Origin: a virus
Virus record (IMG/VR): IMGVR_UViG_3300028829_002225
Span: 1-34,983 of that record
DNA length: 34,983 nt
Direction: 5' to 3' (one strand)
The notes below the pieces were generated by a model. It made no database searches. It was given only the letters and a program-made list of their open reading frames with translations, and was not told the DNA's origin. Positions 13,482 through 29,912 of the stretch are shown here, in pieces. Each line of letters opens with the position of its first letter. The first letter of the stretch is position 1. The translations under genes were made by a program, and so were the position numbers.

Positions 13482-13505
13482 TGTGGCGGACATTGTTCCG
13501 CCACA
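13482..13505 (+). promoter_or_regulatory. 9-bp perfect stem hairpin directly after the major capsid gene
   Basis: TGTGGCGGA (13482-13490) and TCCGCCACA (13497-13505) pair perfectly around a six-base loop. The next bases are ACTAGAAAG, so the U-run of a classical terminator is missing on the plus strand. It may protect the 3' end of capsid mRNA or give partial termination. It also overlaps an apparent GTG start at 13483, arguing that the next gene begins at the ATG at 13519. Confidence 0.55.
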
Positions 13506-13518
13506 ACTAGAAAGAGAA

Positions 13519-14019
13519 ATGTACACAACAATAGTAAAAGAAAACTTTTTTGATAATGTTGAAGATATAATTAATATATCTAAAAAATTAAAATATTATC
13601 CACCAAAGAAAAAAGATAACTGGCCTGGTTTAAGAACTAAATCATTACATGAAACTAACTACGATTTATTTTGTACAATAGTTAATAAAGTTATTAGAAA
13701 TTATTACACAACGAATGAATGTAGATTTAATAATACATCGGTTTATTTTAGTAAGATAAAAAAAGGACAAAAAGGTAAAACACATTTTCATTATGACCAA
13801 AATATGGCAATAGCTGGTGTGGTTTATTTATCAGAAGGTGATATAAAATCAGGTACAACTTTATTTAATAAAGATAAAAAAAAACATATCATTGTTGGTA
13901 ATGAGTTTAATTCTATGGTATCTTACGATGGTAAAAAATACCATGGTATTACAAATTTAAATTCTTTTAAAGAAAGGTTGACATTAAACATATTTATTGG
14001 AGATATAGAAGTATTATGA
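13519..14019 (+). CDS. Fe(II)/2-oxoglutarate-type oxygenase (DUF6445-like) next to the capsid gene
   Basis: A 166-aa protein, from the ATG at 13519, with a double-stranded beta-helix pattern. Metal ligands are predicted at H91 and D93 (HYD in HFHYDQN) and H142 (YHGITN), with R153 (ERLTLNIF) in place to bind 2OG. The order HxD, then GVVYLSEG, GTTLF, H and R recalls DUF6445. A GTG at 13483 is in frame but sits inside the hairpin stem after the capsid gene, so the ATG is preferred. Products of this fold hydroxylate proteins, nucleic acids or small molecules; the substrate here is unknown. It overlaps the next gene by ATGA and stands apart from the oxygenase cassette at 22139. Confidence 0.72.
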   Translation: MYTTIVKENFFDNVEDIINISKKLKYYPPKKKDNWPGLRTKSLHETNYDLFCTIVNKVIRNYYTTNECRFNNTSVYFSKIKKGQKGKTHFHYDQNMAIAGVVYLSEGDIKSGTTLFNKDKKKHIIVGNEFNSMVSYDGKKYHGITNLNSFKERLTLNIFIGDIEVL

Positions 14020-19378: not shown

Positions 19379-20743
19379 ATGGCATCAACGTACACAGGAC
19401 TAGGTGTTGAACTTCAAGCAACCGGTGAAAACGCTGGAACTTGGGGGACAAAAACTAATACAAATTTACAAATTATAGAACAAATATCAGGCGGTTTCAT
19501 ACAACAAGCTGTTTCCGATTCAGGGGATACTACACTATCAGTTTCAGACGGTTCAACTGGTGCAGCTCTTGCACACAGAATGATTGAGTTTACAGGAACT
19601 ATTTCTGCTGGAAGAAATGTAACAATACCACTTGATGTTCAAACTTTTTATTTTTTAAAAAATTCAACAGGTGGATCACAAATAGTAACTTTTAAATATG
19701 CTTCTGGATCAGGATCAAGTGTAGCTGTTGGTAGTGGAGAAACAAAAGTTGTATTCGCTACAGCAAATGATGGCACAAACCCAGACATACTTGAACTACC
19801 ATCTGGTGACGTAACACTTACAGGAACACAAACTTTAACAAACAAAACTTTAACAGCTCCAAAAATTGTAGATGGAGGTTTTATTGCAGATGCAAATGGA
19901 GCGGAACAAATTATATTTCAAACAACAGGTTCAGCAGTAAATGAATTAGAAGTAACTAATGCTGCAACAGGTAATCCACCAATCATAGGTGCAAGTGGAG
20001 AAACAAATGTTGATATTCATATTAAACCAAAAGGTTCTGGAGAAACAAGAATTGGAACAGGAGCAGCTGCAGCTACGCTTACAACAAGTGGCACGCATGA
20101 TCTTGTATTAGATACAAACTCAGGAACTAACTCAGGTACAATAACAATTACTGATGGAGCAGATGGTAACATTAATATTGCACCTAACGGAACTGGCGTT
20201 GTTCAAGCGGGCGGTTCTGCAGTAAAAGTTGCAGGTAAAGAAACTATATGGATTCCTGCAGTTGCTATGTACCCTAACTCTACAAATGGAGCAGAAGCGG
20301 CACAAGTAGAATTATCTAATGGACCTGAAATAAAAGTTTTAGATTTTGATAAAGATTCAGATGAGTTTGCACAGTTTGCTGTAGCATTTCCTAAATCATG
20401 GAATGCAGGCACAGTAACTTTTCAAGCTTTCTTTACAGCAACTTCAACAGACACTGGAACTACAGCATGGGGACTATCTGGAGTAGCTTTAGCTGACAGT
20501 GGAGATTTAAACACAGCGTTTGGAACACAAGTTGTTGCAACAGCAAAAGCTCACAGTGGAACATCTAATGATTTAGATGTTGCAGCTGAAAGTGGAGCAG
20601 TAACAATTGCAGGATCACCTGGTGATAATGAGTATGTTTTTTTCCAAGTGTCAAGAGATGTATCTGCAGATGATTTAAATGCTGATGCAAGATTACTAGG
20701 AATTAAATTATTTTTCACTACTGACCTGGCTAACGACGCATAA
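19379..20743 (+). CDS. Tail fibre protein
   Basis: A 454-aa protein beginning MASTYTGLGVELQATGENAG with TWGTKTNTNLQIIEQ, an N-terminal opening I associate with marine phage tail fibres. The middle includes LTGTQTLTNKTLTAPKI, the short-repeat motif common in trimeric phage fibres, and NIDIHIKPKGSGETRIGTG-type beta turns. The C-terminal domain (about 295-454, from WIPAVAMYPNSTNGAE) is a separate globular beta domain, the probable receptor-binding or chaperone-like end. It has an AGGAG site and is followed by the poly-Gly gene. Receptor specificity cannot be read from sequence. Confidence 0.78.
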   Translation: MASTYTGLGVELQATGENAGTWGTKTNTNLQIIEQISGGFIQQAVSDSGDTTLSVSDGSTGAALAHRMIEFTGTISAGRNVTIPLDVQTFYFLKNSTGGSQIVTFKYASGSGSSVAVGSGETKVVFATANDGTNPDILELPSGDVTLTGTQTLTNKTLTAPKIVDGGFIADANGAEQIIFQTTGSAVNELEVTNAATGNPPIIGASGETNVDIHIKPKGSGETRIGTGAAAATLTTSGTHDLVLDTNSGTNSGTITITDGADGNINIAPNGTGVVQAGGSAVKVAGKETIWIPAVAMYPNSTNGAEAAQVELSNGPEIKVLDFDKDSDEFAQFAVAFPKSWNAGTVTFQAFFTATSTDTGTTAWGLSGVALADSGDLNTAFGTQVVATAKAHSGTSNDLDVAAESGAVTIAGSPGDNEYVFFQVSRDVSADDLNADARLLGIKLFFTTDLANDA

Positions 20744-20755
20744 TAGGAGTAAAAG

Positions 20756-21688
20756 TTGAAAGATTACAAACTAGACAACCTAGAAAACCAACACGGTCAA
20801 AATAAAAAACGTGAAGTAAAACCTAAAACTAGAGGTTTCGGATATCAAGTATTGGGATTCGGCTCTGGTGGAGCAGGCCAAGGTCCTTACGCAATCGATT
20901 ATTTAGTAGTCGCTGGTGGCGGTGGAGGTGGCGGCCCAGCTTCATTTGCTTTTGCAGATGGCGGCGGAGGTGGTGGCGCCGGAGGATATAGAACATCTTT
21001 TAATACCGGGTCTTACGATGAACCCTCAGTATCAGAAATATTAGTAGATCCAGGTGAAGATTACAGTATTACAGTAGGCGGAGGAGGCGGCGGTTCAGGC
21101 GGCGGTTCTTCTTCAGTTTTTTCATCTATCACATCTGCTGGTGGTGGAAAAGGTGGCCGAGGAAATTCTAACGAAGCCGGAGGAGCCGGCGGATCAGGTG
21201 GCGGAGGCGCATGGTCAGGAGGCGCGGGAGGAGCAGGAAACACACCTTCAACAACTCCATCACAAGGAAATAATGGCGGAGCCGGAGAAGCTGGTGGACC
21301 ACATAGATCTGGAGGTGGCGGAGGAGCATCTGGTGGAGGATCACCTGCGGACGCTGGAAATGGAAATGGCGGAGCTGGAAGAACTTCTACTATTAATGGA
21401 TCACCTGTGGCTAGAGCCGGAGGCGGCGGAAAAGGAAGCGGAGGAGCTTCGGGCGCTGGATCAGGAGGTTCAGGAGGCGGAGCGAGCGGAAATAGTGCAG
21501 CATCTGCAAACACCGGAGGCGGTGGTGGCGGAGGCCAAGGAAACGGACAAGCAGGAAACTCTGGCGGATCTGGAATTGTAATTTTAAGACATGCAGCAGG
21601 ACCTGCAGACTCATCAGGCGGAACTAAAACAACAAGTGGAACAGATACAATCCACACCTTCACAGGAGATGGGACATACACGGCATAA
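20756..21688 (+). CDS. Poly-glycine adhesin/tail fibre tip protein
   Basis: A 310-aa protein with a TTG start 6 nt after AGGAG (20745-20749). Residues 1-50 are charged and flexible (KDYKLDNLENQHGQ). From YAIDYLVVAGGGGGGG on, glycine dominates, in many GGGGG, GGAGG and GGGSP runs, broken by short strands such as EILVDPGEDYSITVGG, and it ends GIVILRHAAG with GTDTIHTFTGDGTYTA. This arrangement resembles poly-glycine type II helix bundles known from the phage S16 gp38 adhesin, where Gly helices hold variable receptor-contacting loops. GC content rises here because of Gly codons. The long minus-strand ORF opposite is its shadow. It probably binds the host receptor. Confidence 0.75.
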   Translation: MKDYKLDNLENQHGQNKKREVKPKTRGFGYQVLGFGSGGAGQGPYAIDYLVVAGGGGGGGPASFAFADGGGGGGAGGYRTSFNTGSYDEPSVSEILVDPGEDYSITVGGGGGGSGGGSSSVFSSITSAGGGKGGRGNSNEAGGAGGSGGGGAWSGGAGGAGNTPSTTPSQGNNGGAGEAGGPHRSGGGGGASGGGSPADAGNGNGGAGRTSTINGSPVARAGGGGKGSGGASGAGSGGSGGGASGNSAASANTGGGGGGGQGNGQAGNSGGSGIVILRHAAGPADSSGGTKTTSGTDTIHTFTGDGTYTA

Positions 21689-21690
21689 TT

Positions 21691-22146
21691 ATGGCACACT
21701 ACGCAAAATTAAATAGCAGTAACGAAGTATTAGCAGTTCATGTTGTAGACAATGCTAACAGTGAAACTGAAGCAAAAGGAATTGAATATCTTACAGGAAT
21801 TACTGGTTATACAAATTGGAAACAGACTTCTTATAACACACAATACAATGTTCATTTATTAGGAGGAACACCATTTAGAGGAAACTTCGCTACAATAGGC
21901 GGAACATATGATCCAACAAATGATATTTTCTTACCTCAAAAACCATACAGTTCTTGGACTTTAGATACAACAAACGCTAAATGGGTAGGTTCTGTATCTT
22001 ATCCAACAGTTTTAAAAGACCCTGCTGATAGTACAGATCCATCAGCAATTATTCTATTCGAATGGAGCGAAAGTGAAAACACTTACGTTACAAATGATGG
22101 AACTAAAAAGTGGAATGCTTCTACTTCTGCTTGGGACACTATATAA
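21691..22146 (+). CDS. Conserved phage protein after fibre genes, possible fibre-tip or chaperone protein
   Basis: A 151-aa protein opening MAHYAKLNSSNEVLAVHVVD and containing WKQTSYNTQYNVHLLGGTPF with NFATIGGTYDPTNDIFLPQK and PYSSWTLDTTNAKWVG. This pattern is one I recall from many cyanophage and pelagic phage genomes downstream of tail fibres. It is Trp/Tyr/Thr-rich and probably an all-beta domain on the fibre or tail surface. Its 3' end overlaps the oppositely oriented first cassette gene by eight bases. The function is not established. Confidence 0.68.
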   Translation: MAHYAKLNSSNEVLAVHVVDNANSETEAKGIEYLTGITGYTNWKQTSYNTQYNVHLLGGTPFRGNFATIGGTYDPTNDIFLPQKPYSSWTLDTTNAKWVGSVSYPTVLKDPADSTDPSAIILFEWSESENTYVTNDGTKKWNASTSAWDTI

Positions 22147-22747
22147 TTAATTTATTTAATTTATAATCTTCACCAACAACTCCTTTAAAATAGCTATTGA
22201 AAGCTAAACTTATTCTAGTGCTGTTGTGTTTTCTAAAAGGTACATCATGTTGAAGGTGAGATGGAAACAATACTAAGTCACCGTTTTGAATATTTATCTT
22301 CCATATATTACTATTGTATTGACTTGTTTCTTTTGTATTAAAAGAAAAATTTAAATACTCTGATTTATGAAAAACTATCTGATCTATATCCTCAACTACA
22401 TTTAAATACAAAACACCAGAAACATAACTGTTGGCATGATTGTGTTGGTGATGCCATTCATTTTTTGTTGTAAAATTAATCCATGAATTTGTTATAAAAG
22501 GTTTGCAGTTTGTTACTTTTAATACATCTTTGTAATATTTTTTTAAACCAGAGATTACAAACTTTTTTAAACTACTAAAGTTTTTTTCTTCCAAAACATA
22601 TGTGTTCTTAGAAGTTCTATTTCCAAAATTATTATTTAGTTCAAGATGATTATCATCAACTATTTTCTTTTCCTTGTTTGTAAGACGTCTGTTCATATTT
22701 GTTTTAAATATGGCAGTCGGGAATATCTCGTATATTGTATCTTTCAT
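22139..22747 (-). CDS. Fe(II)/2OG oxygenase-like protein (TIGR02466-like), only clear minus-strand gene
   Basis: A 202-aa protein with a double-stranded beta-helix pattern: WHHQHNHANSYVSGVLYLNV with candidate ligands H102 and H104, NGDLVLFPSHLQHDVP with H164 and H167, and R178 in TRISLAF. The H-x-H, S-G-x-Y-Y-L-like strand and final NSYFKG(x)VGE block are what I remember of TIGR02466, annotated as putative 2OG-Fe(II) oxygenases. It is transcribed against the operon and converges with the preceding fibre gene (8-nt overlap). It shares a 39-base divergent promoter region with the next gene. The substrate is unknown. H102 and H104 replace the usual HxD, so activity needs checking. Confidence 0.75.
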   Translation of the reverse strand: MKDTIYEIFPTAIFKTNMNRRLTNKEKKIVDDNHLELNNNFGNRTSKNTYVLEEKNFSSLKKFVISGLKKYYKDVLKVTNCKPFITNSWINFTTKNEWHHQHNHANSYVSGVLYLNVVEDIDQIVFHKSEYLNFSFNTKETSQYNSNIWKINIQNGDLVLFPSHLQHDVPFRKHNSTRISLAFNSYFKGVVGEDYKLNKLII

Positions 22748-22786
22748 GAGGTTGACTTATATACTAAAATATAATAAATATCAACT
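22748..22786. promoter_or_regulatory. Divergent promoter region with imperfect inverted repeat
   Basis: On the minus strand, TTGATA (plus 22779-22784) and TATAAG (plus 22756-22761) are separated by 17 bases, with the start codon at 22747 immediately downstream, so the transcript would be almost leaderless. On the plus strand TTGACT (22752-22757) and a perfect TATAAT (22770-22775) occur, but their 12-base spacing is too short, so plus-strand use is unsure. GTTGA (22751-22755) and TCAAC (22781-22785) form inverted ends that could be an operator. Confidence 0.45.
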
Positions 22787-23356
22787 ATGAAAGAAATGGC
22801 AAAGATAGACTTATTTAAGACTCCTGTAACTGTTACAGAGTTAGATGTTTCAACATCTAAATTAAAATCTTTTTGTAAAATTTATAAAAACAAAAACATA
22901 ACAAAAAGTAATTCGGGAGGGTACCACAGTGAATTTTTAGATATTACAGTAGAACCTTTAAAATCTTTATTTAAATTGATAGATGCAGAAGTATATAAGT
23001 ATTCAACTAATCTTTTAAATCTAAAAGAAGTTTTTTTTGATAATGCTTGGTATATTGTAAATCCACCAAAAGCTTATAATAAAATTCACAGTCATCCACA
23101 CTCAACAATATCAGGAGCTTTTTATATAGATGTACCAAAAAATTCTGGAGATATTGTTTTTTACAATCCAAACGATGTAGAACCTTATTTATACAGAGAA
23201 AGTATTAACAAGTTTAACGATTACAACGCTAGTAAATACATGTTACCCTGCAAAGAAAAAAACTTGATTATTTTTCCTGCTTGGTTAAAACATGAAGTAT
23301 TACAGAACATGTCAAAGAAAAATAGAAAGGTACTGTCATTTAATTACAAATGCTAA
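22787..23356 (+). CDS. Fe(II)/2OG oxygenase-like protein (TIGR02466-like)
   Basis: A 189-aa protein, a second TIGR02466-like fold: HSHPHSTISGAFYIDVPKNS with H101/H103/H105, SGDIVFYNPNDVEP, IIFPAWLKHEVLQN with H169, and R180 before VLSFN. This gives the order H-x-H, distal His, Arg expected for the fold. An ATG at 22796 is an alternative start, and no ribosome-binding site is visible. It has divergent orientation with the preceding gene and overlaps the next by 7 nt. Sequence between this and its minus-strand neighbour has diverged beyond the motifs, so they are paralogues at most. The substrate is unknown. Confidence 0.74.
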   Translation: MKEMAKIDLFKTPVTVTELDVSTSKLKSFCKIYKNKNITKSNSGGYHSEFLDITVEPLKSLFKLIDAEVYKYSTNLLNLKEVFFDNAWYIVNPPKAYNKIHSHPHSTISGAFYIDVPKNSGDIVFYNPNDVEPYLYRESINKFNDYNASKYMLPCKEKNLIIFPAWLKHEVLQNMSKKNRKVLSFNYKC

Positions 23357-23871
23357 AAGAATATAAATTTTCTGAAACATTTATAGCTTATGATAAGCTT
23401 GAAAAAGATTCATTAGTTAATGATGATCTATTGAAAGAAGTAATTTTAGATGATTACAAAAATAGAAAAGACGACAATCCAGATATAAAAATTACACACA
23501 ATAAACATATAGGTTGGGTAACTAATTTAGTCATGGAACAGTTTAAATTAATTAAACCAGATTATCAGGGTCTAAGTTCACATAGTATTTTTGCAAATGT
23601 TGAAATGCCTGGAGAGTCTTCTCAAAGAAGAAATCATTATTATAGAAGTGATTTATCAAAATCTCCTGTAATGGTTGCTACATATTTTATAAATGGATCT
23701 GGTTTTTTAATGATCGAAAACGATGATCCTCCTATGTTAGATAGAACATATGATCATATTATAAAACCTAGAACATGGGCAGCTTACAATAGTCATTTAG
23801 AATCTTACAGGACTACTAACAAAGAAAAAGAACCTAGATGTTCTATTACGGCATTAATGTATTACATATAA
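23350..23871 (+). CDS. Divergent jelly-roll-like protein of the oxygenase cassette
   Basis: A 173-aa protein that overlaps the previous gene by 7 nt. The C-terminal half has the strand order of a beta-helix oxygenase: RRNHYYRSDLSKSPVMVATY, FINGSGFLMIENDD, IIKPRTWAAYNSHLESYR and PRCSITALMYY. Candidate equivalents are H96, D101, H149 and R163, but a proper HxD/E pair is missing. It could be a degenerate or metal-variant 2OG oxygenase, a non-catalytic partner subunit, or an unrelated cupin. I place it in the cassette by position and fold pattern only. Confidence 0.55.
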   Translation: MLKEYKFSETFIAYDKLEKDSLVNDDLLKEVILDDYKNRKDDNPDIKITHNKHIGWVTNLVMEQFKLIKPDYQGLSSHSIFANVEMPGESSQRRNHYYRSDLSKSPVMVATYFINGSGFLMIENDDPPMLDRTYDHIIKPRTWAAYNSHLESYRTTNKEKEPRCSITALMYYI

Positions 23872-24474
23872 ATGAATCTTAAATTTGCTTACTGGTATTT
23901 TAACAATGCTTTAGATAAAAAGTTTTGTAAAAAAATAATTAATCACGCTTTGAAAAAACAAAAACTATTAGGTCTAGTTGGTGAAGATAAACCTAAAAAA
24001 GTAAATAAAGAGTATGTGGATAATTTAAAAAAATTAAGAAACTCACAAGTAGTTTGGTTAACCGATAGTTGGATATATGAAGCCTTACACCCTTTAATTG
24101 ATACAGCTAATAGAAATTCTGGTTGGAATTTTAATTGGAAGTTTTCTGAAAAAATACAATTTACAATATATAAAAAAGGCCAACACTATAATTGGCATAG
24201 AGATTCTTTTCCTAATCCAGATAAAGCAGGAATGATAAGAAAATTATCTGTGACTGTACAACTAAATGATAGTAAAGATTTTGAAGACGGTAAGTTACAA
24301 TTTTGTATGGACGACACCAGACCTGATTATGAAAGAAAAATAATAACCTGTAACGAATCAGACAGAGGTTCTGTTATTGTCTTTCCTTCTCACCTTTGGC
24401 ACAGAGTAACCCCGGTTACAAAAGGCACAAGGTATTCATTAGTATTGTGGAATAGAGGAAGTACGTTTGTATGA
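23872..24474 (+). CDS. Fe(II)/2OG dioxygenase, prolyl-4-hydroxylase/PKHD type
   Basis: A 200-aa enzyme with the clearest motif set in the cassette: QHYNWHRDSF (H109, D111), RKLSVTVQLNDSKDFEDGKL, RGSVIVFPSHLWHRVTP (H177) and GTRYSLVLWNRG (R187). This is the complete HxD...H...R set of 2OG-FeII_Oxy_3/PiuC-like hydroxylases, so a functional oxygenase is likely. Members hydroxylate proteins, amino acids or small molecules. The N-terminal helix (NNALDKKFCKKIINHALK) is the usual lead-in. It starts one base after the previous stop and overlaps the next gene by ATGA. The substrate is unknown. Confidence 0.88.
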   Translation: MNLKFAYWYFNNALDKKFCKKIINHALKKQKLLGLVGEDKPKKVNKEYVDNLKKLRNSQVVWLTDSWIYEALHPLIDTANRNSGWNFNWKFSEKIQFTIYKKGQHYNWHRDSFPNPDKAGMIRKLSVTVQLNDSKDFEDGKLQFCMDDTRPDYERKIITCNESDRGSVIVFPSHLWHRVTPVTKGTRYSLVLWNRGSTFV

Positions 24475-25091
24475 GTTATTTAGTTAAAGATTATGAATTA
24501 ATAAAAGGAGCTTTGCACTCTTCCTTTGCAGAGACTATTTATGACTATCTTCTTTTAAAAAGAAAAGTGCAAGATACTTTGATAAAAAAGAAATACTATA
24601 AAAAAAGTGAATCTATATTTGGTCACTACGGCGACAACATATGCGATGATACCTGGTGTATTTATGGAGATCCATTATGTGATGTAATACTACACAAATT
24701 TATACCATCTATGTCGGAGCTTTGTGGACAAGAGGTTATACCAACTTATTCTTATGCAAGGCTGTATCAAAAAGGAGACAAGTTACCAAAACATACAGAT
24801 AGAGTATCTTGTAAAGTTTCTTGTACCATATTTATTGGAGGAGATACTTGGCCAATATATTTAAAAGAAAATAATAAAAATGTAAAAATAGATTTTGAAC
24901 AAGGCGACATGCTTGTTTATGATGGAAGAAAATTACCACATTGGAGAAATAAATTTAAAGATAAAACATGTGCTCAATTGTTTTTACATTATGGTTTTGC
25001 TGATAATCCAGCTGATGTAAAAAATGCTTTTGATAAAAGAGAACATTATGGATTACCTGTGCATTATTATAGTGAGGTAAAGGACGGTTAA
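24471..25091 (+). CDS. Fe(II)/2OG oxygenase-like protein
   Basis: A 206-aa protein with YARLYQKGDKLPKHTDRVSC (H108, D110), CTIFIGGDTWPIYL, FEQGDMLVYDGRKLPHWRNK (H157) and AQLFLHYGF. The HxD pair and distal His fit the 2OG fold, as does the acidic/Gly-rich strand pair between them; the usual Arg for 2OG is not clear and may be K163 or K165. The N-terminal half (DYELIKGALHSSFAETIYDY) is helical. It begins in an ATGA overlap and ends one base before the next start. Cysteines are unusually frequent. The product is probably an oxygenase with an unidentified substrate. Confidence 0.77.
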   Translation: MSYLVKDYELIKGALHSSFAETIYDYLLLKRKVQDTLIKKKYYKKSESIFGHYGDNICDDTWCIYGDPLCDVILHKFIPSMSELCGQEVIPTYSYARLYQKGDKLPKHTDRVSCKVSCTIFIGGDTWPIYLKENNKNVKIDFEQGDMLVYDGRKLPHWRNKFKDKTCAQLFLHYGFADNPADVKNAFDKREHYGLPVHYYSEVKDG

Positions 25092-25690
25092 TGCAGCATA
25101 AAGTTTATTCATTATTTGCTACAAACATTGGAGTCTTTCAAATAGATATTGATTGTAATAAATATTTAAAAATTATTGAGAAAGAGGACTATAATTTATC
25201 AGACCCAAACAAGTCTAATCTAGCTGATATTTCTAAAAACAATAAATTGTTTAATAATAAAAAATATAAACCTTTAGAAAATAAATTTAAAGAAGCCTTA
25301 GATATGTATGCCTATAAATATCTAGAGTATAAATGTGATTTAAATATATCTAACTCCTGGTCTACAAGAACAAAAAGTAAAAAAGAATCTAGTTTACATA
25401 ACCATTCTAATTCTTTTTTAAGTGGTGTGTTTTATTTACAAGAAGAAACCAGTCCAATATACTTTGAAAACTTTAACAAACCACACTTTAACGTGCCTCT
25501 GCAAAATCCTAACATTCGAAATAGTCAGTTCTATACTTTAGATACAAGACCAGGTTTGCTTTTAATTTTTCCAAGTGGTACTTATCATAAAATTTTAGAA
25601 AATAAATCTAACAAAACAAGATACTCAATAGCTTTTAATGTTTTACCAAAAGGTAAAATAGGAAGTTGTGATAATGAATTAATATTATGA
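25091..25690 (+). CDS. Fe(II)/2OG oxygenase-like protein (TIGR02466-like)
   Basis: A 199-aa protein with SLHNHSNSFLSGVFYLQEET (H103, H105), PIYFENF, RPGLLLIFPSGTYHKILENK (H166) and NKTRYSIAFNVLPKGKIG (R177), matching the TIGR02466-type order. It ends with a SCDNELIL tail of the kind also seen in its minus-strand relative (a final LNKLII). It starts on the last base of the previous stop and overlaps the halogenase start by ATGA, so it is probably translated together with it. The second metal ligand is His rather than Asp, as in the other two TIGR02466-like cassette proteins. The substrate is unknown. Confidence 0.77.
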   Translation: MQHKVYSLFATNIGVFQIDIDCNKYLKIIEKEDYNLSDPNKSNLADISKNNKLFNNKKYKPLENKFKEALDMYAYKYLEYKCDLNISNSWSTRTKSKKESSLHNHSNSFLSGVFYLQEETSPIYFENFNKPHFNVPLQNPNIRNSQFYTLDTRPGLLLIFPSGTYHKILENKSNKTRYSIAFNVLPKGKIGSCDNELIL

Positions 25691-27270
25691 ACAAGATAGT
25701 TGTATTAGGTGGAGGCACCGCAGGTTTTATGACAGGTTATACTTTAAAAAAAGTATATCCAGATAAACATGTTACGATAATAAAAAGTGACAACATACCA
25801 ACAGTTGGTGTAGGAGAAAGCACATTAGGACATATCAATCAATGGCTCTCTATGGTTGGACTCGAAGATAGCGAGTTTATGAAAGAATGTAATGCTTCTT
25901 ATAAATTAAGTATTAGATTTGAAAACTTTAATAAACTAGGTGACGGTGGTTTTCATTATCCCTTTGGTGTTGCTAATCTAGAAAATACAATAGCTGGATT
26001 AAATGATTGGCATTTTAAAAAAATACTACACCCTGAAACTCATGTAAGTAATTTTGCAGAAACATATTTTCCAAACATGTCTTTAGTAAACCACAATACA
26101 ATTGTAAATCCTAAAATAGAAAAGGATCTGGGTTTAGGTAATTTTTGTTTTAAAGAAGATACGGCGTATCATTTTGATGCTGCTTTATTTGGTCAGTTTT
26201 TAGAAAAGAAATTTAAAGAAATAGGTGGCGAAGTTGTCATTGATGATGTTGTGCGTGTTGCTACAAATGAAGATGGTATTGAAAAATTAATTTTAAGTTC
26301 AAATGAAATAACAGCAGACTTGTACATAGACTGTACTGGTTTTAAATCTATGTTGTTAGGAGAAGCTTTGAAAGAACCTTTTGAAAGCTACGAAGATATA
26401 TTACCTAATAATTCTGCATGGGCTACGCAGCTACCTTACACAGATAAAAAGAAAGAGTTAGTTGGATATACTAATTGCACTGCTATACAAAATGGTTGGG
26501 TATGGAACATACCTTTATGGAATAGAATGGGAACAGGTTACGTATACTCTGATAAATATATATCTGACGAAGATGCATTAGAACAATTTAAATCATATTT
26601 AAAAAGAGATGATCTTAATTTTAGAAATTTAAAAATGAGAGTAGGTATACATAAAAGAATATTTGTAAAGAATGTGTGTGCTATAGGTTTGGCAGCAGGG
26701 TTTATAGAACCTTTAGAAAGTAATGGTCTATTATCTGTACATGAATTTTTAACAAGATTAGTTAGAGTATTAAATAGAGATTCTATATCGGCGTTTGTAA
26801 AAGAACAATTCAATGTAACTTGTAATACGTTTTTTAAAAACTTTGCTGAGTTTGTAGCTTTGCACTATGCTTTATCAGAAAGAACAGATACACAATATTG
26901 GCGAGATATACAGAAAAGAAATTATTCAATAGAGAGAGATTATGTAAAATATAATAGCTTCTTTCAAGATATAAATAGGTGGAAGTTTAATGATTTTTTC
27001 TATCCTAAAGATGGTGGTTGGGCATGTATAGCAACAGGAATGAATTGGGGTGCTACAGATGAACCTACACTTAAATATGGTTTATATTCTCATGACTTTA
27101 AAAACGTTAAAGATAATTGGAAACGATCTATTGATGTGTTAGAAAAAAGAAAAAAGGATTGGGATTTAAAAGCTAGTTTTTGTCATCCCTTGGAGGAATA
27201 TCTAAGATTAAATATTTACAATGATACAGACAAAGATAAAAATAAAAAACAAAAAACCACTTTTAGATAA
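25687..27270 (+). CDS. Flavin-dependent halogenase (tryptophan-halogenase family)
   Basis: A 527-aa FADH2-dependent halogenase. Signatures in order: a GGGTAGFM dinucleotide-binding loop (8-15), VGVGESTLGHINQWL (40-54), and K73 in ASYKLSIRF, at the place of the catalytic Lys79 of PrnA. The WVWNIP motif (271-276) is the family WxWxIP signature, and FIEPLESNGLL (339-349) carries E344/S345, matching the EPLES region of PrnA. The family turns Cl-, Br- or I- into a Lys-bound hypohalous species and halogenates aromatic rings. A marine cyanophage relative (VirX1 of Syn10) has been reported to iodinate diverse substrates. Here a flavin reductase is not seen, so FADH2 would come from the host. The substrate is unknown. 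Confidence 0.92.
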   Translation: MNKIVVLGGGTAGFMTGYTLKKVYPDKHVTIIKSDNIPTVGVGESTLGHINQWLSMVGLEDSEFMKECNASYKLSIRFENFNKLGDGGFHYPFGVANLENTIAGLNDWHFKKILHPETHVSNFAETYFPNMSLVNHNTIVNPKIEKDLGLGNFCFKEDTAYHFDAALFGQFLEKKFKEIGGEVVIDDVVRVATNEDGIEKLILSSNEITADLYIDCTGFKSMLLGEALKEPFESYEDILPNNSAWATQLPYTDKKKELVGYTNCTAIQNGWVWNIPLWNRMGTGYVYSDKYISDEDALEQFKSYLKRDDLNFRNLKMRVGIHKRIFVKNVCAIGLAAGFIEPLESNGLLSVHEFLTRLVRVLNRDSISAFVKEQFNVTCNTFFKNFAEFVALHYALSERTDTQYWRDIQKRNYSIERDYVKYNSFFQDINRWKFNDFFYPKDGGWACIATGMNWGATDEPTLKYGLYSHDFKNVKDNWKRSIDVLEKRKKDWDLKASFCHPLEEYLRLNIYNDTDKDKNKKQKTTFR

Positions 27271-27724
27271 GATAAAAAGTATAAACTCTTCTATATATTC
27301 TCATGTAGCTTTTGGGGTATCTTCTTATGATACTGTGTATAACTATGGTAAGCATAAAGAGTTTCATCCTATATTGGACGCATTCTTATTACATGCTGGA
27401 AAAGGTTTTGAGATACTAGACTTTTGGTTTAATATTTATGGTCCAAATGGTTATGTAAAACCACACGCTCATCATAAGAGTAGTGATAATGGAAACTTAA
27501 AATCCGGTGTATATTATCTACAAAAACCAATCAATTCCGGTGATCTAATCTTAAACAATCAATTGATAAAGGTGGAAGAAGATGATATTATAATCTTTGA
27601 CTCTGACGTAGTTCACTACAGTCAGCCTAATCGATCAAATCAAGATAGGATAATATTATCTTGCAACCTAGGTAAAGGGTATAAAAAAGTTTTACAAAAC
27701 AATAAATGGGTATTAAAACAATAA
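27221..27724 (+). CDS. Fe(II)/2OG oxygenase-like protein, end of cassette
   Basis: A 167-aa protein overlapping the halogenase end by 50 nt in another frame. It has WFNIYGPNGYVKPHAHHKSS (H82, H84), SGVYYLQKPINSGDLIL, EEDDIIIFDSDVVHYSQPNR (H132) and DRIILSCNL (R143). This is the 2OG-type order, with HAH in place of HxD. The long overlap makes the start the least certain point, but no later in-frame ATG precedes the conserved core. It ends just before the tail gene at 27726, marking the right edge of the cassette. The substrate is unknown. Confidence 0.74.
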   Translation: MIQTKIKIKNKKPLLDKIKSINSSIYSHVAFGVSSYDTVYNYGKHKEFHPILDAFLLHAGKGFEILDFWFNIYGPNGYVKPHAHHKSSDNGNLKSGVYYLQKPINSGDLILNNQLIKVEEDDIIIFDSDVVHYSQPNRSNQDRIILSCNLGKGYKKVLQNNKWVLKQ

Positions 27725-27725
27725 A

Positions 27726-29912
27726 ATGTTACAAAAATTAGGCTTTCTTCCAGGTATTAATAAACAGATGACACCTACCGGTGCAGAGGGTCAGTGGATA
27801 GATTGTGATAATGTACGATTTAGATACGGATCTCCTGAAAAAATAGGTGGCTGGAATCAGTTAGGAAACATTAATGAAAATGAGCTTACAGGAGCAGGAC
27901 GTGGGTTACATCATTTTGTTAATAGTTTAGGTAGAAAATACGCAATCATCGGTACAAACAGAATCTTATATGCATACTCAGGTGGCGTATTTTATGACAT
28001 ACACCCTATCCAATCTACAACCGATCTTACAAGTGCATTTACCACGACCAATGGATCACCTACAGTAACAATAACATATCCTAGTGCACACAATTTAATT
28101 GCAGGAGATATTTTATTAATGAGTGGTTTTTCTACAGCAACAAATTCAAACTATAGCGCTTCTGATTTTGATGGTAAAAAATATATGGTTACATCAACAC
28201 CTACCAATACAACTATAACAATCACTATGTTATCTAATGAGTCAGGTTCTGGTGCAGCAACATCAGGTGGAATTACTATTAAAAAATATTATAGTGTAGG
28301 TCCAGCTGTTCAAGCAAAAGGATTTGGTTGGGGATTAGGTTCTTGGGGTGGAGAAGATTCATCTGCTGTATCAACAACTTTAGATGGGGCTATCAACTCT
28401 TCAGTAACAAGTATTACTTTAACTGATGCATCACTATTCTCTAGTGCTGGAACAAATTTTATAATTATAGATGACGAAGAAATTTCTTACACAGGAATTA
28501 GTAGTAACACTTTAACAGGATGTACACGAGGTGTAGCTGGAACAACAGCAGCATCTCATAGTGATAACGCAACAGTTACTGCGTCAACAGACTATGTTGC
28601 ATGGGGAGAAGCAGCATCAGGAGATTTAGTAATCGATCCGGGAATGTGGTCACTAGATAACTTTGGAGATAAGGCAATTTGTTTAATTCACGATGGTGCA
28701 TGTTTTGAATGGGATTCATCTTTATCAAATGCTACATCTACAAGAGCAACAATTATATCTGGTGCACCTACTGCATCAAGACACATGTTAGTATCTACAC
28801 CCGATCGTCACTTAGTATTTTTTGGAACAGAAACAACTATCGGAGATACTACAACACAAGATGATATGTTTATCCGATTCTCGGACCAAGAAGATATAAA
28901 CACATACACACCAACAGCAACCAATACAGCTGGTACACAGAGACTAGCCGACGGATCAGAAATTCGAGGAGCGATCAGAGGTAGAGATGCAATCTATGTT
29001 TGGACAGACACAGCTTTATTTACACAACGTTTTGTTGGTCAACCATTCACTTTTGCCTTTGCACAAGTTGGAACTCACTGTGGACTTGCAGGGCAGAACG
29101 CATGTGTAGAAGTTGATGGTGCTGCATACTGGATGTCAGAAAATGGTTTTTTTAGATACGCAGGTAAATTAGAATCATTACCTTGTTTAGTAGAGGATCA
29201 TGTTTATAATGACATCAATATTGAATCCGGTAACCAAATGATATCTGCTGGATTAAATAATTTGTATGGTGAAGTAATGTGGTTTTATCCAAGTGCAACA
29301 TCTTCTGTTGTAAATAAAATGGTTTGTTATAATTATTTTGATTCATCAACACAAAGACCTGTCTGGACTATTGGTTCTTTAGCTAGAACGATGTGGAGAG
29401 ATTCTGCGATATTTGGTTTACCACATGCATTATCATACGATGCTGAAACAGATACATCTTTTGATGTTATAGGAAATACGGAAGGTAGAACAAGCTACTA
29501 TGAACACGAAACAGGGACAGATCAAAATAGAAATTCAACTATAACTGCAATCATAGCAAACATAACTTCTGGAGATTACGATATTACTCAACAAAGATCG
29601 GCTCAAGGACAGCAAACAGGTGTTGCAACATTTAAAGGCGATGGAGAATATCTAATGAAGATAAGAAGGTTTGTACCTGATTTTATATCTCAAACTGGTA
29701 ACACACAAATTACATTAAATTTAAGAAATTATCCAAGTGATACGTCTGCAAGTTCATCGCTTGGACCATTTACCGTTTCATCATCAACTCAAAAAGTAGA
29801 CACACGTGCAAGAGCTAGAGCTGTTGCATTAAAAATAGCAAACACAGGTGCCTCTCAAAGTTGGAAGTTAGGAACTTTTAAATTGGACACACAACCAGAT
29901 GGACGTAGATAA
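27726..29912 (+). CDS. Tail hub/stabilisation protein of a short tail (P22 gp10/tail tubular B-like)
   Basis: A 728-aa protein opening MLQKLGFLPGINKQMTPTGA, then WIDCDNVRFRYGSPEKIGGW, a pattern I recall at the start of tail stabilisation or tail tubular B-like proteins in marine short-tailed phages. The middle is a beta-rich Thr/Ser region with a GFGWGLGSWGGE Trp pair (spacing five, like the triads at 18148). The second half contains HMLVSTPDRHLVFFG, a propeller-like strand set, and FAFAQVGTHCGLAGQ. The C-terminus is basic. It follows the cassette directly and resumes tail assembly genes, supporting insertion of the cassette between adhesin and tail modules. Confidence 0.75.
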   Translation: MLQKLGFLPGINKQMTPTGAEGQWIDCDNVRFRYGSPEKIGGWNQLGNINENELTGAGRGLHHFVNSLGRKYAIIGTNRILYAYSGGVFYDIHPIQSTTDLTSAFTTTNGSPTVTITYPSAHNLIAGDILLMSGFSTATNSNYSASDFDGKKYMVTSTPTNTTITITMLSNESGSGAATSGGITIKKYYSVGPAVQAKGFGWGLGSWGGEDSSAVSTTLDGAINSSVTSITLTDASLFSSAGTNFIIIDDEEISYTGISSNTLTGCTRGVAGTTAASHSDNATVTASTDYVAWGEAASGDLVIDPGMWSLDNFGDKAICLIHDGACFEWDSSLSNATSTRATIISGAPTASRHMLVSTPDRHLVFFGTETTIGDTTTQDDMFIRFSDQEDINTYTPTATNTAGTQRLADGSEIRGAIRGRDAIYVWTDTALFTQRFVGQPFTFAFAQVGTHCGLAGQNACVEVDGAAYWMSENGFFRYAGKLESLPCLVEDHVYNDINIESGNQMISAGLNNLYGEVMWFYPSATSSVVNKMVCYNYFDSSTQRPVWTIGSLARTMWRDSAIFGLPHALSYDAETDTSFDVIGNTEGRTSYYEHETGTDQNRNSTITAIIANITSGDYDITQQRSAQGQQTGVATFKGDGEYLMKIRRFVPDFISQTGNTQITLNLRNYPSDTSASSSLGPFTVSSSTQKVDTRARARAVALKIANTGASQSWKLGTFKLDTQPDGRR

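Follow-up and report, generated by a model that had tools for sequence, protein, structure and literature searches.

Introduction

What does a marine phage do with a block of oxygenase genes and a halogenase gene set among the genes of its tail? For well over ten years the role of 2-oxoglutarate (2OG) oxygenases and halogenases in marine phages has been a matter of guesswork, the suggestions being nitrogen control, DNA repair and antibiotics. We analysed such a block in the IMG/VR virus record IMGVR_UViG_3300028829_002225 (34,983 nucleotides, referred to below as the window), where an islet of eight open reading frames (ORFs; g1 to g6, hal and g8) lies between a small tail-region gene at 21691 and a structural gene at 27726. 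Judged from sequence comparisons, the islet is probably an exchangeable enzyme set through which a glycine-rich adhesin of the phage's tail (GLY, 20756-21688, plus strand) becomes hydroxylated and halogenated.

The window is assigned by sequence to the HTVC023P-type pelagiphage group; its portal protein is 66% identical to that of Pelagibacter phage HTVC027P. The record is probably incomplete, because cultured relatives span 57-61 kb and the record 35 kb. Functions suggested earlier for such enzymes comprise 2OG and nitrogen control (PMC3037559), repair of DNA and antibiotic protection (PMC2984593) and iron demand (PMC12753301), and one marine phage genome holds 24 2OG oxygenases (PMC9602691). 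Within HTVC023P-type pelagiphages, the phage group of the window, Wittmers et al. (2022; PMC9599517) described clusters of 2OG-Fe(II) oxygenases accompanied by 'ferrochelatases', co-located as are g4 and g5 here. Unlike our analysis, the main text of that study includes neither a halogenase nor a link to tail or adhesin, and it takes the ferrochelatase label at face value. Clustered oxygenases were thus already reported in 2022, and it is the clue to their substrate that is new here. In the searchable literature, outside which many subscription papers lie, we found neither the virion proposed as a target of these enzymes nor a link to protein composition. A 2010 study by Iyer et al. in Nucleic Acids Research reportedly connected such oxygenases with glycine-rich, collagen-like proteins in bacteria.

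Composition of the glycine-rich tail protein follows enzyme content

If GLY were the substrate of the islet enzymes, its composition should follow the enzyme content of the locus. Viral contigs were scanned for the halogenase, for the tail gene downstream (TAIL, 27726-29912, plus strand) and for the fibre gene upstream (FIB, 19379-20743, plus strand), and 101 distinct HTVC023P-type loci spanning FIB to TAIL were obtained. An exploratory comparison linked the His and Tyr content of GLY to the halogenase (hal, 25687-27270, plus strand). Each halogenase-positive locus was paired with the nearest negative locus, as judged by the downstream tail protein. GLY His was higher in 22/25 halogenase-positive loci in the first matched pairing, in which the halogenase had no effect on His in FIB, TAIL or the small tail-region protein ADH (21691-22146, plus strand). 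Under stricter dereplication it was higher in 23/24 pairs (p=2e-7), and in 0/1000 label permutations did any residue show an effect of that size. The same analysis gave a second link: GLY Pro was higher, by 3.7 points, in all 14 of 14 pairs when a member of phrog_2954, the family of g5 (24471-25091, plus strand), was present.

The His and Pro predictions were fixed and then tested on new loci. Pro reached 6.3% with phrog_2954 and 2.5% without (14 vs 5 loci, p=2e-4); His was 1.36% with a halogenase and 0.68% without (4 vs 15 loci, p=0.051), and a separate replication of the halogenase-His link on new loci gave p=0.014. Over all 95 dereplicated loci, which like the underlying events retain some dependence even after matching and dereplication, His was higher with the halogenase in 34/36 pairs (p=3e-8) and Pro with phrog_2954 in 18/19 pairs (p=8e-6). 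In a joint regression, Pro on g5 (t=9.3) and His on halogenase (t=7.3) were the two strongest of 100 terms. Pro-Pro occurred in GLY in 68/76 loci with phrog_2954 vs 2/19 without; a strict rule that Pro-Pro requires g5 was obeyed in the first set (0/14 loci without g5) and broken in the new loci (2/5). No Pro contrast is available for g4, because that gene is nearly universal. Trp, the classical substrate of the family to which hal belongs, showed no halogenase link in GLY. ADH, FIB and TAIL were rejected as halogenase substrates, as none carried a His, Tyr, Trp or Phe composition signal, and the neighbouring genes likewise lacked the Pro effect seen with phrog_2954.

The initial annotation had left a host-surface glycan, a small molecule and the phage's own virion proteins as alternative substrates; we favour the last because GLY composition follows enzyme content. 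The prolyl-hydroxylase fold of g5 (see below) is a line of evidence independent of the Pro covariation. Among 16 annotated T4-like myoviruses, glycine-rich tail proteins upstream of the corresponding block contained 2.3-3.4% His with a halogenase vs 0.2-1.1% without, ranges that do not overlap (p=9e-4); nine of these genomes were fetched after the prediction had been fixed (4 vs 5, p=0.008). We treat this comparison as supporting, not decisive, because the protein families on the two sides probably differ.

Several observations weigh against GLY as the substrate. In the window itself GLY is Pro-poor (11 of 310 residues) and lacks Pro-Pro, and only H183 of its four His lies in the glycine-rich part. 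The Tyr link to the halogenase, significant in the first data (p=0.0003), gave p=0.24 and p=0.47 in new loci, and we treat it as weak because the new loci did not replicate it. A search of the QGN..GG loop of GLY for a single conserved site of halogenation gave no significant difference (13/35 vs 4/20, p=0.23). The myovirus glycine-rich proteins with and without halogenase differ in length as well as, probably, in family. A few genes of the halogenase or g5 families stand apart from tail genes: in S-B64 the halogenase, and in S-P4 the phrog_2954 member, is in a replication region. Finally, the covariation could be indirect.

The main rival reading is that adhesin type and enzyme set are co-selected indirectly. 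The two would then be linked modules, or the host receptor would select for both, and the enzymes would act elsewhere, for example on a surface molecule of the host to which the adhesin then binds. The adjacency of GLY, ADH and the enzymes, which are exchanged together, speaks for it, as does the covariation of ADH composition with the presence of g3. However, the effect survives dereplication of GLY and matching on the adjacent phrog_7759 gene, ADH (Pro 11/11 pairs; His 22/22 pairs, p=5e-7), the residues fit the chemistry predicted for each enzyme, and unrelated myoviruses show the His link as well. We consider an indirect origin of the covariation unlikely.

Two further composition terms emerged in the 95 loci. 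The more PF13759 genes a locus has, the higher is the Arg content of GLY (t=5.2); where g3 is present, the phrog_7759 protein is richer in His (t=6.1). The first is an unconfirmed lead, and both are possible further enzyme-substrate links.

The oxygenases of the islet

The initial annotation had counted six clear 2OG-oxygenase-like proteins and a divergent one. Pfam and PHROGs profiles, AlphaFold models and Foldseek searches agree with this: seven islet proteins have the prolyl-hydroxylase/2OG-oxygenase fold, and six of them a metal site. Four are 2OG-Fe(II) oxygenases of family PF13759, namely g1 (22139-22747, minus strand; E 2e-21), g2 (22787-23356, plus strand; 5e-21), g6 (25091-25690, plus strand; 2e-17) and g8 (27221-27724, plus strand; 5e-9). 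An HxH...H motif and an Arg are invariant across these four copies, and among 169 family members in relatives HxH is kept in 99% and the distal His in 98%. The iron site of these proteins is HxH, not the classical HxD, a motif shared by the solved relative 3bvc. The product of g4 (23872-24474, plus strand) is a PKHD/prolyl-hydroxylase-like oxygenase with an HxD...H...R motif; it matches PF13640 (E 1e-16) and also PiuC, and HxD/E...H is present in essentially all 149 family members among relatives. Most islet proteins are predicted to be active, because active-site motifs are kept across relatives in the oxygenases and the halogenase alike.

These assignments bear on the suggestion, made for the syn9 oxygenases, of an AlkB-like role in DNA or RNA repair or modification. 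Some cyanophage 2OG genes outside the tail blocks do adjoin UvsY/UvsX, including in S-B64; those within the blocks are surrounded by structural genes, and their matches are to PF13759 and prolyl-hydroxylase families instead of AlkB. We give such a role hardly any credence here.

The g5 protein carries the database label 'ferrochelatase' through its match to phrog_2954 (E 1e-42; PHROGs); no Pfam family was found. Its AlphaFold model (pLDDT 94.8) retrieved prolyl hydroxylases in Foldseek, including Pseudomonas prolyl-4-hydroxylase (P4H) 4j25 (E 1.5e-8) and PHD2. H108, D110, H157 and R159 are invariant in the g5 family, and in the 98 phrog_2954 members among relatives HxD...H and the Arg are kept in 99-100%. 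Identification as a ferrochelatase was rejected: no Pfam ferrochelatase matched at E<=1, and the 50 best fold matches shown were 2OG-oxygenase-fold entries with no ferrochelatase among them. On the strength of the modelled fold, the phage annotation 'ferrochelatase' for phrog_2954 is an oxygenase, and g5 is predicted to be a prolyl hydroxylase.

The neighbouring g3 (23350-23871, plus strand) matches no family in Pfam or PHROGs. Its model (pLDDT 89.7) matched 3bvc (3e-6) and also P4H and PHD2 in Foldseek, and no conserved His or His/Asp metal pair was found among 30 relatives. If functional at all, g3 would be a pseudo-enzyme with an oxygenase fold. Relatives of g3 occur in 26/101 loci, usually as the first gene after ADH. 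Pseudomonas putida P4H and human PHD2 share their fold with both g5 and g3 and their HxD...H site with g5; identities are only 10-17%, g3 lacks the metal ligands, and the substrates differ.

Beyond the islet, the labels 'ferrochelatase' and 'DNA endonuclease V' (phrog_2954, phrog_3531, phrog_274) in marine phages seem to cover 2OG-oxygenase-like proteins, and several genes so labelled in syn9, S-RSM4 and 023Pt_psg01 match oxygenase models.

An auxiliary metabolic role, in which the enzymes tune 2-oxoglutarate, nitrogen or iron/haem metabolism of the host, has published advocates (Sullivan 2010; Wittmers 2022; PMC12753301). It has to contend with a 'ferrochelatase' that is an oxygenase and with up to 11 divergent oxygenases in one locus, which are not needed for consuming 2OG, and it leaves the tail position and the Pro and His covariation unexplained. 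We regard this role as very improbable.

The halogenase

The flavin halogenase noted initially is borne out by a PF04820 (Trp_halogenase) match at E 6e-103; hal also belongs to phrog_2928. Its best match in the Protein Data Bank (PDB) is VirX1 of cyanophage Syn10 (6qgm), its closest solved relative, with which it shares the FAD, lysine and WxWxIP motifs. GxGxxG, K73, WxWxIP and FIEPLES are invariant among 24 relatives, and hal is predicted to be a flavin-dependent, VirX1-like halogenase. Syn10 CPUG_00131 is VirX1 itself, and hal is ~39% identical to its best Syn10 match. Like hal, the VirX1 gene sits in an enzyme block beside glycine-rich tail proteins. The islet contains no reductase. Electrophilic halogenation of proteins hits chiefly Tyr and His. 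The published substrates of VirX1 are many small synthetic aromatics, with no pathway listed; among halides the enzyme favours iodide above bromide and chloride, and its active site is unusually open (PMC8407142), which would suit a protein loop as substrate. Blocks with three to four halogenases and several oxygenases, and so with more halogenases than the window, occur in five contigs (L017, L025, L029, L059 and L208).

The breadth of VirX1 towards small aromatics (PMC8407142) also fits a pathway for a small molecule or a capsule decoration, with a halogenated and hydroxylated secondary metabolite as product. Iyer et al. (2021; PMC7824862) predicted such a halogenated metabolite for a 10-gene cluster of the jumbo cyanophage S-SSM6a, which like the islet combines a halogenase, 2OG oxygenases and cupin-like double-stranded β-helix (DSBH) proteins. 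Unlike the islet, that cluster encodes carbamoyl transferases, a methylase and HAD phosphatases, whereas none of the eight islet genes is scaffold-building by Pfam and PHROGs (no carbamoyl transferase, non-ribosomal peptide synthetase, polyketide synthase or sugar enzymes). Moreover, gene content varies freely while the block stays beside tail proteins and the adhesin composition follows it. A metabolite pathway appears improbable to us.

The islet among related phages

Oxygenases were present between FIB and TAIL in 98/101 loci, 1-11 in each (median 5 over all 101), and 32 of those loci held at least 6. Contrary to the initial view, a linked set this large is thus not unusual, and clusters had been reported in 2022 (PMC9599517). 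PF13640 genes were found in 96 of the 101 loci, phrog_2954 in 80, PF13759 in 79, GLY in 80 and ADH in 77. A halogenase was found in 38/101, a share inflated by the two scans that used halogenase queries; the tail-gene scan alone gives 7/56. The gene families of the islet co-occur in relatives, and most of its proteins keep a metal or flavin site.

Gene order is stereotyped (fibre, GLY, phrog_7759, sometimes g3, a PF13640 gene, the remaining enzymes, tail gene), as the initial annotation had proposed to check; the tail position holds in 98/101 loci. The genes of S-B64 and S-P4 described above are exceptions to the tail position. In HTVC027P and several contigs (L080, L108, L118, L135) the block has the opposite orientation; the tail region of HTVC027P yielded neither a halogenase nor a member of the g5 family. 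The islet is a fixed place with changing gene content. Its neighbourhood recurs in the T4-like phages HTVC008M, Mosig, syn9, Syn10, S-RIM44, P-TIM40, S-SM1, S-RSM4 and Sf-CH11, and the hosts of T4-like phages with this layout are Synechococcus, Prochlorococcus and Pelagibacter. Phage contigs with the order fibre, GLY, ADH, oxygenases, tail were also seen in bacterial assemblies: L478 and L479 in Pelagibacteraceae (AG-422-I02, AG-404-L13), which support a SAR11 host, and L477, L487 and L488 in the Maricaulis assembly MAG IN14.

The glycine-rich protein and the flanking genes

GLY has 310 residues, including 4 His, 8 Tyr, 1 Trp and 11 Pro, with zero Pro-Pro. It contains a glycine-rich domain (PF21722, Gly_rich_2; Pfam 2.2e-11) and variable loops between glycine runs, and its domain and position suggest a receptor-binding protein or adhesin. 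In the T-even gp38 adhesins, variable segments flanked by glycine-rich motifs set receptor specificity (PP01, T2, S16; PMC12892980); side-chain modification in GLY loops could therefore tune binding. The likeness of GLY to these proteins is one of description. We know of no modifying enzymes beside gp38. The N-terminus of GLY (20756-20875) carries a short conserved motif, FGYQ(V/I)LGFGSGG, found only in GLY among the scanned ORFs (31 matches), which could be a tag for assembly or enzyme recruitment.

The gene at 21691, annotated initially as the fibre/adhesin gene, in fact encodes ADH, a small conserved tail-region protein of phrog_7759 (E 4e-31), and the adhesin-like glycine-rich protein is that at 20756. 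Homologues of ADH stand beside oxygenases in HTVC023P, HTVC033P, HTVC008M, S-RSM4 and S-SM1. Of the two anchors, FIB encodes a tail-fibre-like protein and lies upstream of the islet in the 101 spanning loci; TAIL encodes a tail or virion structural protein of phrog_3287 (E 1e-91; 80 relatives fetched).

All eight ORFs of the islet were recovered at the coordinates first assigned to them, and g1 (22139-22747) is, as proposed, the sole supported minus-strand gene. The plus-strand ORFs g2 to g8 overlap or abut, with 1 bp between the end of g8 and the start of TAIL. A divergent promoter region had been proposed before g1 and g2; no promoter-like site was found in the 39-bp gap (22748-22786), and such sites are at chance level across the region (52 found vs 50.5 expected). 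All islet genes are under purifying selection relative to the near-identical contig L001 (total pN/pS 0.10, per gene 0.00-0.24). A further oxygenase-like ORF (13483-14019, plus strand) lies outside the islet, directly after the major head protein; it matches DUF6445, weakly PF13640, and a PF13759-type model at 48 bits.

A proposed modification pathway and its implications

The tail position of the islet and a co-operation of its genes, both put forward initially, are supported, and because the genes are embedded among tail genes they are likely to be expressed late, with the tail proteins. In the scheme that we propose, GLY would be modified before the tail is completed. The g5 enzyme would hydroxylate prolines of GLY, and the halogenase, with FADH2 presumably supplied by the host, would halogenate electron-rich side chains in the glycine-rich loops, mainly His and perhaps Tyr. 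The PF13759 enzymes would add further hydroxyls at other residues, and g3 may recruit or hold the substrate. Enzyme set and adhesin loops would vary jointly between phages, which would tune receptor binding. Whether the islet is, in full, a modular post-translational modification line for the phage's own receptor-binding protein, combining prolyl hydroxylation with halogenation (perhaps iodination) of His and Tyr in polyglycine loops, we judge to be evenly balanced.

The residue-specific link to the adhesin names a predicted substrate for each enzyme that can be checked by proteomics on cultured phage. VirX1, which is of interest to synthetic chemists, also gains a candidate for its natural substrate, and the widely copied phage label 'ferrochelatase' denotes an oxygenase. 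If the proposal is true, GLY would be, to our knowledge, the first halogenated virion protein, and VirX1-type viral halogenases, like many unexplained 2OG oxygenases of marine phages, would have their natural function in the modification of adhesins.

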